In this document: piece by piece, positions 31,157 through 37,144 of the stretch
How positions within the stretch are numbered: position 1 is the stretch's first letter
Layout: the number at the start of each line of letters is the position of its first letter
Assembly (NCBI GenBank): GCA_030431475.1
Contig: JAUIJD010000033.1
Location: forward strand, 1-50,534
Direction: 5' to 3'
Origin: Verrucomicrobiia bacterium
GTDB lineage: Bacteria; Verrucomicrobiota; Verrucomicrobiia; Verrucomicrobiales; Akkermansiaceae
DNA: 50,534 nucleotides
Notes under the pieces: model-generated
Databases searched by the model: none
Told to the model about the DNA's origin: nothing
Seen by the model: only the letters and a program-made list of their open reading frames with translations
Position numbers and translations under genes: made by a program

Positions 31157-31951
31157 TCAGGCGGAGCGAGTCGCCTCGATGAGCGGGGTGACGAGTTCGC
31201 GGACGGCGTCGGCGGCGCGCTCGGGGTGAAGCTCGATCTGTTTGACGATGGCGGAGCCGACGATGATGCCGTCACCGGCTTGCGCCACCATGGCGGCCTG
31301 CTCGGGGGTGGTGATGCCGAAGCCGACGCAGACCGGCGTGGCGGTGTGCGGGGTGATGCGGGCGACCTGGTCGGCGATCTGTTCGGAGGGCGCGACGTGG
31401 GCGCCGGTCACCCCGGTGCGGGAGAGGGCGTAGATGAAACCCTCGGCGCCTTCGGCGAGGGTCTTCACCCGGGCGTCGGGCGTGTTCGGCGCGATGAGGC
31501 GGATGTGACGCAGGCCCTCGCCGCGGGCGAGGTCGGTGTTGCGGGCGGCCTCGTCGGGGGGCAGGTCGAGAAGCAGGATGCCGTCGGCTCCGGCCGCCGC
31601 GGCATCGGCGTGGAATTTCTCGTAGCCGTAGGTGAAGACGGGGTTGAGGTAGGTGAAGAGGACGATGGGCGTGTCGTGGGTCTCGCGGAAGGCGCGGATG
31701 AGTTCGAGAACGCGCGGGGTGGTCATGCCGGCCTTGAGCGCACGCTCGGCGGCCATCTGGTTGACGATGCCGTCGGCCAGCGGGTCGGAGAAGGGCACGC
31801 CGAGCTCGATGACGTCGGCCCCGGCGTCGGCGAGCGCGCGGACCACTTCCAGCGAGGCGCCGAAGTTGGGGTCGCCGGCGGCGACGTAGGCGACGAAAGC
31901 CTTTCCGCCGGAGGCGCGGAGCTTCTCGAAAGTGGCGTCGATGCGATTCAT
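31157..31951 (-). CDS. trpA: Tryptophan synthase alpha chain
   Basis: 264 residues, TIM barrel that splits indole-3-glycerol phosphate to indole and glyceraldehyde 3-phosphate. The catalytic residues fall at the canonical positions E49 (VIELGVPFSDP) and D60 (LADG). No trpB is adjacent, which is unusual because trpA and trpB are normally neighbours. A perfect 8-bp hairpin (31956-31963 with 31971-31978) lies just before the start. Confidence 0.95.
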   Translation of the reverse strand: MNRIDATFEKLRASGGKAFVAYVAAGDPNFGASLEVVRALADAGADVIELGVPFSDPLADGIVNQMAAERALKAGMTTPRVLELIRAFRETHDTPIVLFTYLNPVFTYGYEKFHADAAAAGADGILLLDLPPDEAARNTDLARGEGLRHIRLIAPNTPDARVKTLAEGAEGFIYALSRTGVTGAHVAPSEQIADQVARITPHTATPVCVGFGITTPEQAAMVAQAGDGIIVGSAIVKQIELHPERAADAVRELVTPLIEATRSA

Positions 31952-32000: not shown

Positions 32001-33074
32001 CTATTTCTTCTCGTCCTTTTCGGCGTCCTCCGGGAACTGGAAGGTCGGCTCCGGCGGTGGTGGCGACGTTTCGCCTTCTTCAGCGAAGAGGTACGGGCGG
32101 AAGACGATCAAAGGCCGGCGATGGCCGACGACGATGGGGATTTCCGGGTCGCTGAACTCCTCCGGAAGCTGGGAACGATCGCGGACGAGAAGATGATAGG
32201 TCTTGTATTCCGCTCCGGCCCCCACATAGCGCCGCGGCAGTTGCTGGGTCTTGCCTCCGGGAAGCGGGACCTCGTAGTTGAAGCGCAGGCTGGAATGCTT
32301 GGGCTGTTCGGGCGCCACGGCGATCCGCGCTTCGATCGACTTGCCGGCCAGGCCGAGCCGGACCTGGCCGTCGGGCTTGGCTTCCAGCAGGGCGAAGTAG
32401 GGTCCGTAGCTGCCGGCCCGGGCGTAGAGGATGCAGGCGTTCGGTCCGCTGGCGAGCTGGGCCAGACGCTTCGGGGCGAGGTCGTATTCGAGATGGAAGC
32501 GGTAGGTCGCCTCGTCCTCGAAGCGGGAGTCGAAGTAGTGGGCGAAGCCTTTCATCACCTCGTCGACGTCCGGGACGGTGGTGTTGCGCCCGCTGAAGCG
32601 ATCGAGCCGGGAATCGACCCACTGGGCCTTGCCGTCGAGGTCGCGGCCGCGGGGAACCTCGATCCACCCGGCCTGGTCCCACCAGACGATGAAGGTGGCC
32701 ATCGAGTTGGTGGCCCAGCGGTGGTTGAGCTCGAGTTCGTCCGGGTCGAGCAGCGGGATGAGGGTCCGGTCGAACGCCGGGTCCGGCTTGAACTTGTCGA
32801 TCTTGCCGGCGGCTTCGGCCGCGGCCTGCGCGGCGTCGGCGTGGCGCCGGTCGACGAGATCCCGGTCGGCCTGGCTCAGGTTGTCGAGGGCGATGGTGAG
32901 GATCTTGCCGGCGGAGGTGGCGATTTCGACGCTCCGGCCATCGTCGAGGGTGCGGACGTAGGTGCCGCGGAGGGTCTTGCCGTTGACGCCGGTCCAGATG
33001 CGTTCCGACCGGAGATCGTCGGCGACGACGGCGGAGGCGAGGGCGAGCAGGACGGCCAGGACGAGGCGGAGCAT
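32001..33074 (-). CDS. Secreted SHD1-like/papain-like protein, catalytically degenerate
   Basis: 357 residues with a signal peptide and an SHD1-like N-terminal segment (NGKTLRGTYVRTL). The rest aligns with the protein encoded at 33115-34308, including the shared WWD motif, but all papain-type active-site residues are replaced: Gln by D110, Cys by W120, His by P225, Asn by G241. It should be a non-enzymatic paralogue made beside its active relative, perhaps an inhibitor, decoy or binding partner. A Pro/Glu-rich tail ends the protein. The gene is 40 bases downstream of its paralogue on the same strand. Confidence 0.8.
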   Translation of the reverse strand: MLRLVLAVLLALASAVVADDLRSERIWTGVNGKTLRGTYVRTLDDGRSVEIATSAGKILTIALDNLSQADRDLVDRRHADAAQAAAEAAGKIDKFKPDPAFDRTLIPLLDPDELELNHRWATNSMATFIVWWDQAGWIEVPRGRDLDGKAQWVDSRLDRFSGRNTTVPDVDEVMKGFAHYFDSRFEDEATYRFHLEYDLAPKRLAQLASGPNACILYARAGSYGPYFALLEAKPDGQVRLGLAGKSIEARIAVAPEQPKHSSLRFNYEVPLPGGKTQQLPRRYVGAGAEYKTYHLLVRDRSQLPEEFSDPEIPIVVGHRRPLIVFRPYLFAEEGETSPPPPEPTFQFPEDAEKDEKK

Positions 33075-33114
33075 GGGACGGGATCTATCAGTTCCGCCGT
33101 CCGGCTGGCAAGTT

Positions 33115-34308
33115 TCAGGGAGCCTCGGGTTCGAGCTTCGGGAGTGTCGGGTCGCCGGGAAGGGCCGCCGGTTTGCCCTCCTCGCGGTAGCGATAGGGGC
33201 GGACCACCACGACGCCGTCCCAGTTCCGCGGGTCGAGGATGAAGCGGGTCTCCTGGTTTTTGTAGGCGTCCGGCAGATCGTCGGGATTGATGATCTCGAT
33301 CTCGTAGGTGGTCGCCGGAACGAGCTGCCGGCCGACGGTCACCGTCTCGCTGCTCTTCTCGAGCGGCTTCATCCGCCCCTCGAAGCGCATTCCCCAGGTA
33401 TTGAAGACCAGGGTGCCGTCCGGCCAGGCCTCGACCAGGGCGACCCAGTGCCCGGAATCCCGGCCGGGCGGGCGGCGGATGGTCACCTCGAGCATCGTCG
33501 CGTCGGTGCCCGTGGTGTAGCGGGCCAGATTCTCGGGGCGCAGGTCGTGGTCGCGGAAACAGCGGTGGGCCGCGAGATCCCCGATGTCCTTCTCGAAGTA
33601 CTTCGCGAAGCCCTCGCGGGCCTCGTCGACCGAGGTCCCGGCGGTGTTGCGGGTGCCGCAGTAGCGGGCGATGCGGGAGTGGATCCACTCGGCCTTGTCC
33701 TCGAAGTCGCCGCGTTTCGGAATCTCCAGGTAGCCGATCTCGTCCCACCACAGGAGGAAATTGCAGAAGGCGCTCGGCACGCAGTCGCTGGCCTTGTTCC
33801 CGAACTCGCCCTGGTTGATGACCGGGATGCCCTTGCGGTCGACGTGGGGCTCGGCCTTGAAGCGCGCGAAGGGGCCGGTGCCGGTGCGCCGGGGCTCGTC
33901 CTCGGGGTCCTTGCCGCCGAGGAACTCCTTGGCGCGATCGACCTCCTTCTCCACCCGCTCGCTGATTTCCTCGGCAAGCGCGTCGGCTTCGCCGCCGGTC
34001 AATTCGTCCACCTTCTCCCGCAGTCCGGCTCCTCCCTTTTTCGTCAGGTCGCGGAGCAGGCCTCCCATGCCGCCGCGGTTCTCCTTCTCGACGAGCTGGC
34101 GGTCCCCCCCGCTGAGGTTCTCGAGGGCGATCACCTGGAGCTTCCCCGTGCTCATGCGGATCTCGACCTTGGCGCCGTCCTCGAGCGTCCGGACGTAGGT
34201 TCCGCGCAGGGTCTTGCCGTTGGCGCCGGTCCAGACCCGCTCGCCCTCGAGATCGCCGGCGGCGGCGCTGACGATCAGGGCGGCGAGGCAGGGGAGGAGC
34301 CGTTTCAT
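33115..34308 (-). CDS. Secreted SHD1-like/papain-like cysteine peptidase candidate
   Basis: 397 residues with a signal peptide (about 1-17), an SHD1-like segment (GERVWTGANGKTLRGTYV, 23-40), an acidic helical linker (about 90-140), and a papain-like domain. The catalytic set is visible: Q166 (INQGEFG), C176 (SDCVPSAF), H287 (SGHWVALVEAW) and N303 (FNTWG, as the NSWG of papain). It is predicted to be an exported cysteine peptidase. SHD1 segments are common in secreted verrucomicrobial and planctomycetal proteins. It is divergent from nuoB with a palindromic operator between them. Confidence 0.8.
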   Translation of the reverse strand: MKRLLPCLAALIVSAAAGDLEGERVWTGANGKTLRGTYVRTLEDGAKVEIRMSTGKLQVIALENLSGGDRQLVEKENRGGMGGLLRDLTKKGGAGLREKVDELTGGEADALAEEISERVEKEVDRAKEFLGGKDPEDEPRRTGTGPFARFKAEPHVDRKGIPVINQGEFGNKASDCVPSAFCNFLLWWDEIGYLEIPKRGDFEDKAEWIHSRIARYCGTRNTAGTSVDEAREGFAKYFEKDIGDLAAHRCFRDHDLRPENLARYTTGTDATMLEVTIRRPPGRDSGHWVALVEAWPDGTLVFNTWGMRFEGRMKPLEKSSETVTVGRQLVPATTYEIEIINPDDLPDAYKNQETRFILDPRNWDGVVVVRPYRYREEGKPAALPGDPTLPKLEPEAP

Positions 34309-34433: not shown

Positions 34434-34973
34434 ATGGTTTCCGACAACAACGAAATCGCCCACGCGGCCTACGATTCGAAGATCGAGGGCAACGTGATCT
34501 TCACCCGCGTGGATGCCGCGATCAACTGGATGCGGAAGAACTCGATGTGGCCGATGCCGATGGGCCTCGCCTGTTGCGCGATCGAAATGATGGCCTCGGC
34601 CTGCAGTCGCTTCGACCTCAGCCGCTTCGGCGCGGAGGTGATGCGCTTCTCGCCGCGTCAGGCCGACGTCATGATCGTGGCCGGCACGGTGACCTACAAG
34701 ATGGCGCTGGCGGTGAAGCGCATCTGGGACCAGATGCCCGAGCCGAAGTGGTGCATCGCCATGGGGGCCTGCGCCTCGAGCGGCGGCATGTACCGCAGCT
34801 ACGCGGTGCTGCAGGGGATCGACAACCTGATTCCGGTGGATGTCTACGTGTCCGGGTGCCCGCCACGGCCGGAGGCGCTGATCGAAGGCCTGATGAAGCT
34901 TCAGTCGAAGATCGAGGGCGAGCACGCGCTGGAAGAGCAGAAGAAGGAGTTTTTCGAGGAGCTTTCCTCCTGA
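34434..34973 (+). CDS. nuoB: NADH-quinone oxidoreductase subunit B
   Basis: 179 residues, the complex I subunit that carries cluster N2. The ligands are C47 and C48 (LACCAIEMM), C113 (MGACASSGG) and C142 (SGCPPRPE). It sits at the junction of the peripheral arm and membrane. nuoA is not upstream and nuoD is not downstream of nuoC, so the nuo set is split in this genome. A redox-type palindrome precedes the gene. Confidence 0.96.
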
Positions 34974-35576: not shown

Positions 35577-36320
35577 ATGCACCCTCGTCCCCCTATGAGC
35601 GGACGTGTGCCTGACTGGAAAAGTCTCGCCGGAGATCTCGCCGCCGCACGAGGCACGCTGGCATTCGTCGGGCTGCTGCTCGCCATCCAGATTGCGCTGG
35701 GGTGGGCAGGGGGCGTCGAGCGGGTGCCGCAGGTGTATGAGATCTTCGGGCTGAGCCGGGAAGGGCTGGGCCGGGGACGGATCTGGCAGTTGCTGAGCCA
35801 CGGATTGCTCCATGCCAACGGGCTGCATTTCGCCCTGAACGGGCTGGTGCTGCTGGCGGTCGGGCCGCGCCTCGAGCGGATCGGCGGCCTCCGGCTGTGG
35901 GGGCGCCTGATCGTGGCGGGGCTTCTCGCGGGGGGGGCGATGCACCTGGTGGCCGAAGGGGCGGGCGATCGCATCCTGATCGGCGCCTCGGGATCGGTCA
36001 TGGCGGCCTTGTTGTGGCTGACCGCCGTTTCGCCGGGTTCCCGGATGTGGCCGGTGCCGGTGTCGGGAAAAAGCCTCGGCCTCGGGGTCCTGCTGGCCTC
36101 GGCGGTGCTGACCCTCATCAACCCGGCGCTGGGTCTGCCGGTGTTCTCCGACTGGGGCCGGGCCTTGGGTGAAACGGCGGTGCCGGTGGTCTTCGGGGTC
36201 TCCCACGCCTGCCACCTCGGGGGCGCCCTGGCCGGATGGCTGGGGGCGCGCTGGACCCTGAGGCCGCGGGTCACGCTGGCCCAGCTCCAGCGTGACCGGC
36301 GTCGCCGCGAGGGCGGTTAG
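35577..36320 (+). CDS. Rhomboid-family intramembrane serine protease
   Basis: 247 residues with about six membrane helices. The rhomboid signatures are H84 and N88 (LHFALNG), the catalytic serine S138 in IGASGSVM, and the catalytic histidine H213 in SHACHLGG. It should cleave membrane-protein helices within the bilayer. ATG at 35577 is used; ATG at 35595 is possible. It follows nuoC by 28 bases and overlaps the convergent lipoprotein gene by four bases. Confidence 0.88.
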   Translation: MHPRPPMSGRVPDWKSLAGDLAAARGTLAFVGLLLAIQIALGWAGGVERVPQVYEIFGLSREGLGRGRIWQLLSHGLLHANGLHFALNGLVLLAVGPRLERIGGLRLWGRLIVAGLLAGGAMHLVAEGAGDRILIGASGSVMAALLWLTAVSPGSRMWPVPVSGKSLGLGVLLASAVLTLINPALGLPVFSDWGRALGETAVPVVFGVSHACHLGGALAGWLGARWTLRPRVTLAQLQRDRRRREGG

Positions 36321-37144
36321 CGTGCCCCTCGGCCGCGGCGTTGTTGATTGGCGTTCTGCAGGGCCTCCTTCTGCTTCTGGTACGCAGCGGCCTGCTTCTG
36401 GCGTGAGTTGCTGTAGGCTTCCCGCAGGCGGGCGTTCCGCTGTTGCTGGGCCTGGACCGCGGAGTTGACCGGCTGGTTGTAGCCGGCGCGGGCGTTGGTG
36501 TTCTGGCGGGATCCACGGTTGTTTCCACCGCCTCGCTGCGGCTGCCGGGGGGCGGCGTTCTGCGGCGGCTGGTAGCCGCGGTTGTTCTGTCGGTAGGCAT
36601 CCCGCAGCCGCTGGTTGCGCTGCTGCATCGACTCGCGCGCCCTCTGGTTGCGTTCGCGCTGGGCTTCCTGCGCCTGGCGGAAGTTCGCGGCCTGCCGGGC
36701 ACGTTGGGACTGGAACTGGGCCGCGGTGGCGCCGCGCTGGGCACGGACCTTCTCGGCCCACTGGTAGTTCTTGGCCTTGATCAGCGCCAGCCGGTCCTTG
36801 TAGCGGTCGATCTGGCGGTAGCTGACGTTCCGGGGCAGCGGGCAGGCGCCGCGACCGCTCCAGCCGTAGGGGTGGGGCATGCCGGAAACCGGCGCCGGAC
36901 AGTAGCCGCTCGGATAGTAGCCGCCGACCCAGGGATCGTAGTAGCAGCCGCGATTGCGGTCGTAGTAGCAACGGACCGCCGAATCATACAGCCAGCGGTC
37001 GCTGCTGGTGTAGACGAACGACGTGCCGCCGCCGCCGCTGAATCCGTAGCTGTCCGAGTAGCCGTAGTCGTAGGGCGTGTAGTAGCAGGAGGTCGCGAGG
37101 CCGAGGCTGCCCGCGGCCAGCAGGAGGCGAAGAACTTTTCTCAT
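36317..37144 (-). CDS. Tyr-rich then Gln/Arg/Asn-rich lipoprotein
   Basis: 275 residues with a lipobox ending at C20 (LGLATSC). Residues 21-95 are rich in Tyr, Gly and Ser with several Cys; from about 125 the protein is a low-complexity helix rich in Gln, Arg, Asn and Ala, likely coiled-coil or disordered and strongly basic. The basic tail could contact cell-wall polymers or nucleic acid. I do not know a function; short-tract composition makes homology searches unreliable. Confidence 0.75.
   Translation of the reverse strand: MRKVLRLLLAAGSLGLATSCYYTPYDYGYSDSYGFSGGGGTSFVYTSSDRWLYDSAVRCYYDRNRGCYYDPWVGGYYPSGYCPAPVSGMPHPYGWSGRGACPLPRNVSYRQIDRYKDRLALIKAKNYQWAEKVRAQRGATAAQFQSQRARQAANFRQAQEAQRERNQRARESMQQRNQRLRDAYRQNNRGYQPPQNAAPRQPQRGGGNNRGSRQNTNARAGYNQPVNSAVQAQQQRNARLREAYSNSRQKQAAAYQKQKEALQNANQQRRGRGAR

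Follow-up and report, generated by a model that had tools for sequence, protein, structure and literature searches.

A putative pseudoprotease and its enzyme-like paralog between nuoB and trpA in Akkermansiaceae

Two predicted papain-like paralogs beside trpA

The window analyzed here is a whole stretch of 50,534 nucleotides from a Verrucomicrobiia bacterium of the family Akkermansiaceae (GenBank assembly GCA_030431475.1, contig JAUIJD010000033.1, positions 1 to 50,534). Flanked by a nuoB-like gene and trpA, it contains two open reading frames (ORFs), q1 and q2, both on the minus strand and 40 base pairs (bp) apart, exactly where a previous interpretation made from the letters alone (the sequence-only reading) had placed them. 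Both predicted proteins combine a putative signal peptide, a domain resembling the SLA1 homology domain 1 (SHD1) and a predicted papain-like core. q2 keeps the catalytic residues of a papain-like peptidase and q1 has lost them, and our data indicate that q1 is maintained by selection. The features of the locus are as follows.

33115..34308, minus strand: q2, SHD1-like and papain-like protein with a leader and an intact catalytic set, 397 amino acids (ORF; Gln, Cys, His and Asn in the alignment; model Z 10.2 to TDE0362)
32001..33074, minus strand: q1, degenerate paralog without the catalytic residues, 357 amino acids (ORF; BLASTP; Pro, Trp, Pro and Gly in the alignment)
34255..34308, minus strand: q2 putative signal peptide, residues 1-18 (direct reading)
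33021..33074, minus strand: q1 putative signal peptide, residues 1-18 (direct reading)
34081..34254, minus strand: q2 predicted SHD1-like domain, residues 19-76 (model against 2hbp)
32850..33020, minus strand: q1 predicted SHD1-like domain, residues 19-75 (model against 2hbp; 58% identity to q2, leader counted in)
33142..33861, minus strand: q2 predicted papain-like core, residues 150-389 (family profile match and fold match)
32037..32792, minus strand: q1 predicted papain-like core, dead, residues 95-346 (family profile match; weak model, Z about 9 to papain-like proteins)
33811..33813, minus strand: q2 Gln166 (Gln in 10 of 10 Cys/His-intact members)
33781..33783, minus strand: q2 Cys176, nucleophile equivalent (alignment; Cys in 10 of 10 intact members by group definition)
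33448..33450, minus strand: q2 His287 (alignment; His in 10 of 10 intact members by group definition)
33400..33402, minus strand: q2 Asn303 (alignment; the column has Asn 4, Arg 4, His 2 among 10 intact members)
32742..32744, minus strand: q1 Pro111 replacing Gln (BLASTP, MAFFT)
32715..32717, minus strand: q1 Trp120 replacing Cys (alignment)
32400..32402, minus strand: q1 Pro225 replacing His (alignment)
32352..32354, minus strand: q1 Gly241 replacing Asn (alignment)
31157..31951, minus strand: trpA, one boundary of the slot (Pfam Trp_syntA; adjoins nuoB or cargo in the 17 readable slots of 18 genomes)
34434..34973, plus strand: nuoB-like gene, the other boundary (Pfam Oxidored_q6; shares a contig stretch with trpA in 17 of 18 genomes)

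The two proteins align nearly end to end (127 of 409 positions identical, 31%; BLASTP E 1e-56) and NGKTLRGTYVRTL is identical in both, so their homology is not in doubt and the duplication proposed by the sequence-only reading is supported. Papain-like (clan CA) peptidases carry Gln, Cys, His and Asn or Asp in that order, and the alignment places Gln166, Cys176, His287 and Asn303 of q2 in the same order and at the positions first read. We take Gln166 to be the equivalent of the oxyanion-hole Gln, by analogy with papain, and Asn303 to resemble papain Asn175; q2 is probably a thiol hydrolase. The alignment and a scan for cysteines found neither the catalytic Cys nor the catalytic His in q1, whose sole Cys (residue 214) is distant from the nucleophile position. 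Three of the replacements first read in q1 (Trp120, Pro225 and Gly241) hold, and the fourth is misplaced by one residue: BLASTP and MAFFT both align Gln166 with Pro111, not with Asp110, which leaves the conclusion unchanged. Judged by its homology to a protease-fold protein, the loss of the catalytic residues and the purifying selection described below, q1 classifies as a putative pseudoprotease. The basic, hydrophobic leaders of both proteins are read as putative Sec signal peptides.

Structural models of both proteins were built from a four-sequence alignment, which for q1 included q2. The q2 model (predicted local distance difference test score, pLDDT, 70.8) gave as its best Foldseek match in the PDB staphopain C (E 4.2e-3), and the q1 model (pLDDT 58.6) a small barrel (E 0.021), with TDE0362 at E 0.11; no match for either fell under E 0.001. 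Using a second aligner, the q2 core matched TDE0362 (Z 10.2), IdeS (9.9), interpain (9.9), staphopain C (9.3) and C39 domains (9.2), all names that we take to denote papain-like (clan CA) cysteine peptidases, over 130-200 residues (Z about 9-10). The weak q1 model, which is not independent of q2, matched PCAT1 (Z 9.1), TDE0362 (9.0) and staphopain C (9.0). Papain-like proteins make up most of the top rows for both models; the top row itself was in both cases 22oc, 'P210 CD lyase' (Z 10.8 for q2 and 9.7 for q1), whose class could not be assigned. These matches point to a papain-like fold for the q2 core and suggest a similar one for q1. The sequence-only reading had claimed that both copies keep the papain fold; structure prediction is in agreement with this for q2 and gave no mismatch for q1, whose resemblance comes from the weaker model.

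In this regard, the SHD1-like start ascribed to both proteins agrees with the match of their N-terminal domains to 2hbp, an SLA1 homology domain 1 (Z 7.2 for q2 and 7.8 for q1; 58 residues, root-mean-square deviation 2.2), at a level, Z under 8, that may reflect a common arrangement. The match to this SH3-like barrel is modest because other small barrels match too. Neither protein reached the Pfam cut-off for SHD1, and one of ten relatives had a sub-threshold match (15 bits against a cut-off of 23.7, E 0.023). Additionally, neither window protein is recognized by Pfam or NCBIfam families or by PADLOC anti-phage defence profiles at E up to 1, and none of the ten relatives matched Pfam at cut-off. 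A weak Pfam match to SidE_DUB (E 0.28) was treated as chance. PDB searches with family sequences gave only matches taken as chance, the best being a retinoblastoma pocket whose E value went from 0.011 to 1.4 with a larger profile.

Residue conservation and purifying selection in the family

The stretches fetched from matching genomes hold 30 family proteins, of which 25, including q1 and q2, were kept for the tree; the other five (L085, L090, L087, L091 and L088:3473-5461) are fragments or only partly alignable, although Gln, Cys and His are aligned in L091. Ten of the 25 alignable members have both Cys and His (hereafter enzyme-like) and 15 lack one or both (hereafter dead). All ten enzyme-like members have the Gln; the Asn column holds Asn in four, Arg in four and His in two, so Asn303 is not a hallmark of the family and the idea that Asn is essential to it was rejected. 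The 15 dead members retain Gln in one case, Cys in one, His in one and Asn in two.

We compared alignment columns between the ten enzyme-like members and nine dead rows (q1, its ortholog in G001, L037, L040:6479, L077, L078, L080, L082 and L084). Conservation extends across both groups in 14 columns (R158, P162, W187, W188, P197, W208, F238, A270, L291, G298, G306, L345, P346 and P371); W187, W188, P197, W208, F238, P346 and P371 are kept in at least 88% of enzyme-like and dead rows alike. A further 27 columns are conserved only in the enzyme-like group. In the dead rows Q166 and C176 are kept in 0 of 9, P178, T219, G224, T225, N260 and H287 in 1 of 9, V289 and W305 in 2 of 9, and the others in as many or more; Cys and His define the groups, and their loss is therefore no independent result of this comparison. 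The states of the Gln, Cys, His and Asn columns in the nine dead rows are PEAH, PSHY, PWPG, EWPG, HAQA, PGCF, PSAN, PSIH and PAIH.

Five dead members share a C-terminal extension of about 295-348 residues, which is also weakly present in enzyme-like L081 and in the second L088 copy and is absent from q1 and q2 (L040:6479-8827, L037:6118-8232, L080:2049-4181, L082:5356-7374, L083:3267-5285 and L081:5633-7510). It appears by eye to carry a second SHD1-like stretch; there was no Pfam match in the two extensions tested.

Our analysis of selection relied on a codon likelihood model, which replaced the NG86 and YN00 estimators of dN/dS (nonsynonymous to synonymous divergence, omega) because the GC content at third codon positions is 88%. 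The comparison of q1 with its G001 ortholog rejected neutrality (2dlnL, twice the log-likelihood difference, 157.7; dN 0.336), about as strongly as did that of the enzyme-like pair, q2 and its Haloferula rosea counterpart (2dlnL 160.4; dN 0.383); dN in the trpA comparison is 0.110, and the NG86 estimates for the two pairs are 0.61 and 0.56, respectively. The only dead pair with a measurable dS, L082/L083 from another genus (g13), gave an omega of 0.05 over 672 codons (dS 0.09), and the enzyme-like pairs L075/L076 and L072/L074 gave 0.19 and 0.17.

Between q1 and its G001 ortholog the frame is open and the leader and SHD1-like domain are kept at 55% identity between the two species. When neutral substitution of q1 was simulated without indels, 26, 4, 0 and 0 of 200 runs stayed free of stops at 0.1, 0.2, 0.32 and 0.64 substitutions per site, respectively. 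The branches leading to q1 and the G001 ortholog measure 0.32 and 0.55 in a 21-row tree (without four further long-branched rows) and 0.38 and 0.47 in the 25-row tree, and the genome branches since the split, in a three-gene tree, 0.075 + 0.023 on the q1 side and 0.18 on the G001 side; this rough comparison with q1 gave no sign of a speed-up of the dead copy in G001 relative to its genome. The dead copies show purifying selection, and q1 is not decaying. The proposal that selection keeps the degenerate copy for a non-enzymatic role is thereby supported by the rejection of neutrality for q1 and the low omega of L082/L083, and the neutral decay that would have spoken against it was not found by the codon likelihood tests or by simulation.

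Distribution and history of the two kinds

Profiles built from the protein family found matches in 23 of 260 genomes of the taxonomic family to which the window belongs with E up to 0.001 (profile A1) and in 24 of 260 with E up to 0.01 (profile A4), 22 of 386 in a sample of the order, two of them outside the family, and 4 of 387 in a sample of the phylum, three of them within the genus; all these counts include the window's own genome. The window's genus, which contains H. rosea, belongs to the order Verrucomicrobiales.

Among the 24 matching genomes, both kinds occur in 2, only the enzyme-like kind in 8 and only the dead kind in 12, with 2 unclassified (a fragment in G191 and a weak match in G275). 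The profile search, which a divergent copy or one in a missing region could escape, found no enzyme-like copy in 12 of the 14 genomes with a dead copy, and no dead copy in 8 of the 10 with an enzyme-like one. Seven of the 12 dead-only genomes are at least 90% complete, or five without G230 and G240, whose very divergent sequences leave the catalytic columns unsure; the dead-only assignment of G152 comes from a truncated frame. Two dead-only genomes, G001 and G013, keep the dead copy in the slot between nuoB and trpA. Tandem copies were found in four genomes: the window's own (G000), G014, G205, where neither copy has the Cys/His pair, and G240, with a dead first copy and a second one whose divergence prevents classification.

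The nuoB-trpA slot is readable in 17 of the 18 genomes of the genus and holds both kinds in two (G000 and G014), the enzyme-like kind only in one (G003), the dead kind only in two (G013 and G001) and neither in 12. Seven of these 12 are gaps of about 115-310 bp, and five hold other ORFs: a Uma2-like frame in three (L114, which matches Pfam Uma2 at E 9.8e-31, and L116 and L121, which resemble it) and, for L117 and L120, ORFs of other kinds, one of which matches the TIM-barrel family AP_endonuc_2. A search with the family profile for remnants in the ORFs of seven slots with neither copy, all but the five shortest gaps, found none that passed the inclusion threshold. The slot behaves as a variable cargo slot.

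In a three-gene species tree each of the two main clades of the genus contains both kinds, and a recent duplication confined to the window's genome was therefore rejected. The pattern is consistent with an ancestral pair followed by differential, repeated loss, and gain by transfer into the slot may also have contributed; orthology within each kind is poorly resolved across the genus. The duplication is probably old and would predate the diversification of the genus.

The catalytic residues were lost at least twice in the family. Parsimony on the 25-row tree gives five changes, three of them forced by well-supported branches, and on the 21-row tree three changes, two forced. A single loss for all dead members (11 of the 21 rows) was rejected (approximately unbiased test, p-AU 0.001; the group was named after seeing the tree). 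One old loss is possible for nine dead rows (support 53/91): q1 with its ortholog in G001, L037 and the copy from H. rosea, together with five dead rows from two other genera. These nine plus L077 as a single loss gave p-AU 0.43. This nine-row tree group has L083 in and L077 out, whereas the nine rows of the column comparison include L077 and omit the near-identical L083. Furthermore, a separate loss is visible in a second slot, beside a miaB-like gene, where G028 has one intact copy (L038:2172-3311) and G205 a tandem of two copies, neither of which has the Cys/His pair intact (L079:5414-7615; PCYN and QSWS).

A probable non-catalytic role and its alternatives

Taken together, we put at roughly 60% the probability that q1 is an old, selected pseudoprotease, most likely an exported non-catalytic binding module with no need of the enzyme. 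According to this, the ancestor would have been an exported protein made up of an N-terminal SHD1-like domain and a papain-like core, duplicated probably before the genus diversified. One copy (q2) would have retained the Gln/Cys/His machinery, and the other (q1) would have lost it while retaining structural residues, the SHD1-like domain and the leader. q1 would then most likely work outside the cytoplasm in its own right, binding a peptide, protein or envelope ligand. As regards the whole family, we give even odds to the broader proposal of an unnamed bacterial family of exported SHD1-like/papain-fold proteins whose fold became a stand-alone non-catalytic binding module at least twice, with more pseudoproteases than enzyme-like members and with the former outlasting the loss of their enzyme-like paralogs.

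Several points weigh against this interpretation of q1. dS is saturated for most pairs, where only likelihood-ratio tests were used. The 27 columns conserved only in enzyme-like members are not confined to catalytic residues, and the dead copies have therefore changed more widely than at the active site. The q1 model is weak and, because q2 was part of the alignment behind it, its likeness to papain-like folds is no independent evidence. Truncated or fragmentary dead copies exist (L085:5482-6198 in G152 and L087:4976-5203 in G191), so decay may occur in some genomes. Since 12 of 17 slots hold neither copy, the genes are dispensable. Support for orthology among the dead copies of the genus is poor (26/44 for the placement of L037), and a comparison of neighbourhoods outside the genus slot gave no clear pathway.

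The sequence-only reading had favoured q1 as an inhibitor, substrate adaptor or immunity partner of the active enzyme, and had suggested looking across genomes for a pair that always co-occurs. In its wider form, which adds a chaperone role and compares q1 with SERA5 beside other SERA proteins, we regard this regulation of q2 by q1 as unlikely. In G000 and G014 the two genes are adjacent, on the same strand and in the same order, and both kinds co-occur slightly, not significantly, above chance (2 genomes against 0.5 expected; Fisher p 0.09-0.10, kinship ignored); SERA5 has moreover been documented as a papain-like pseudoprotease that acts non-enzymatically, and its family is clustered in tandem (PMC5500368, PMC7132891). 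However, most genomes with a dead copy yielded no enzyme-like one, including largely complete ones, both tandem copies of G205 lack Cys and/or His where G028, in the corresponding slot, has a single intact copy, and the dead copy of G001 shows no speed-up. Additionally, PMC12136450 deals with a papain-like toxin, and the passages retrieved do not present the toxin's immunity protein as a copy of it. An obligate partnership is not supported as a general explanation, and a partner role may still apply in the two genomes with both kinds.

We consider it improbable that the papain-like pocket of the dead members runs a different reaction or binds a cofactor, which would make the term pseudoenzyme wrong. 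The Asn position is free even among intact members, and inactive-looking enzymes such as USP53 are reported to have proved active, but the replacements at the four catalytic columns vary among the nine dead rows with no common new set, and columns conserved in the dead group and not in the enzyme-like one suggest no new set either. That q1 is a functionless pseudogene-to-be is largely refuted and highly improbable: the loss of four catalytic residues, the presence of the family in only 5 of 17 slots and the truncated copies elsewhere would agree with it, but not the open frame, leader and SHD1-like domain kept between two species, the rejection of neutrality, the substitution-only simulations or the low omega of the g13 pair.

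To our knowledge, known papain-fold pseudoproteases come mainly from eukaryotes, and no literature on the q1/q2 family was found among the matches listed from open PubMed Central (PMC). A selected, non-catalytic q1 would have a known parallel in the Plasmodium SERA family, whose papain-like genes form tandem clusters; in some of them the catalytic Cys is replaced, and SERA5 has a non-enzymatic role (PMC5500368, PMC7132891). Like it, the q1/q2 family has tandem papain-like genes, some of them catalytically dead; unlike it, it includes dead copies in genomes that yielded no enzyme-like one, and q1 is bacterial and has lost all four residues, whereas SERA5 is eukaryotic with a Cys-to-Ser change. 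Inactive cysteine proteases of Sarcoptes and bacterial pseudo-orthocaspases are likewise cysteine-protease homologs with lost catalytic residues, but come from other organisms or, as caspase homologs, have another fold, and the excerpts retrieved mention no SHD1-like domain.

With respect to papain-like (clan CA) peptidases in general, the q2 core model (Z about 9-10) and its residue order suggest likeness; the family differs from them in the lack of a sequence-family match, the SHD1-like N-terminus, the varying Asn position and the 15 of 25 members without Cys and/or His. The N-terminal domains similarly resemble SLA1 SHD1 in the models and differ from it in falling below the Pfam cut-off and in their bacterial, putatively exported context. 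At one syntenic slot the family presents enzyme-like only, dead only, both or neither, and the dependence of a pseudoenzyme on its active sibling is therefore directly testable in related bacteria. If the broader proposal for the family is true, it would offer a natural series in which to follow, at one constant place in the chromosome, how a protease turns into a protein with a receptor-like or structural function.

Lastly, some minor observations concern the surroundings of these genes. A scan of the locus found no promoter-like site, and terminator-like sites were no commoner than in shuffles. Four genomes have sulfatase genes no more than a few kb away from family members (L072:3861-5528, L073:4132-5562 and L090:3646-5400 by Pfam Sulfatase, and L088:7818-9173 by likeness); sulfatases are common in such genomes, and their proximity may reflect only this. 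A membrane-like ORF, with no Pfam family in the two tested, is found near L038, L079 and L091, and the miaB-like gene adjoins the family copies of L038 and L079. A DnaG gene lies near L080, with a homolog near L089, and other neighbouring ORFs are common to two loci each, many from the close-relative pairs L075/L076 and L082/L083. The SHD1-like N-terminus has weak matches elsewhere in the window's genome (G000:C92:25506, C27:31910, C68:39362 and C93:155765). Within the window, positions 36317-37144 on the minus strand match Pfam OCRE, a domain found in eukaryotic RNA-binding proteins, just at cut-off (24.8 against 24.7 bits), possibly for compositional reasons.

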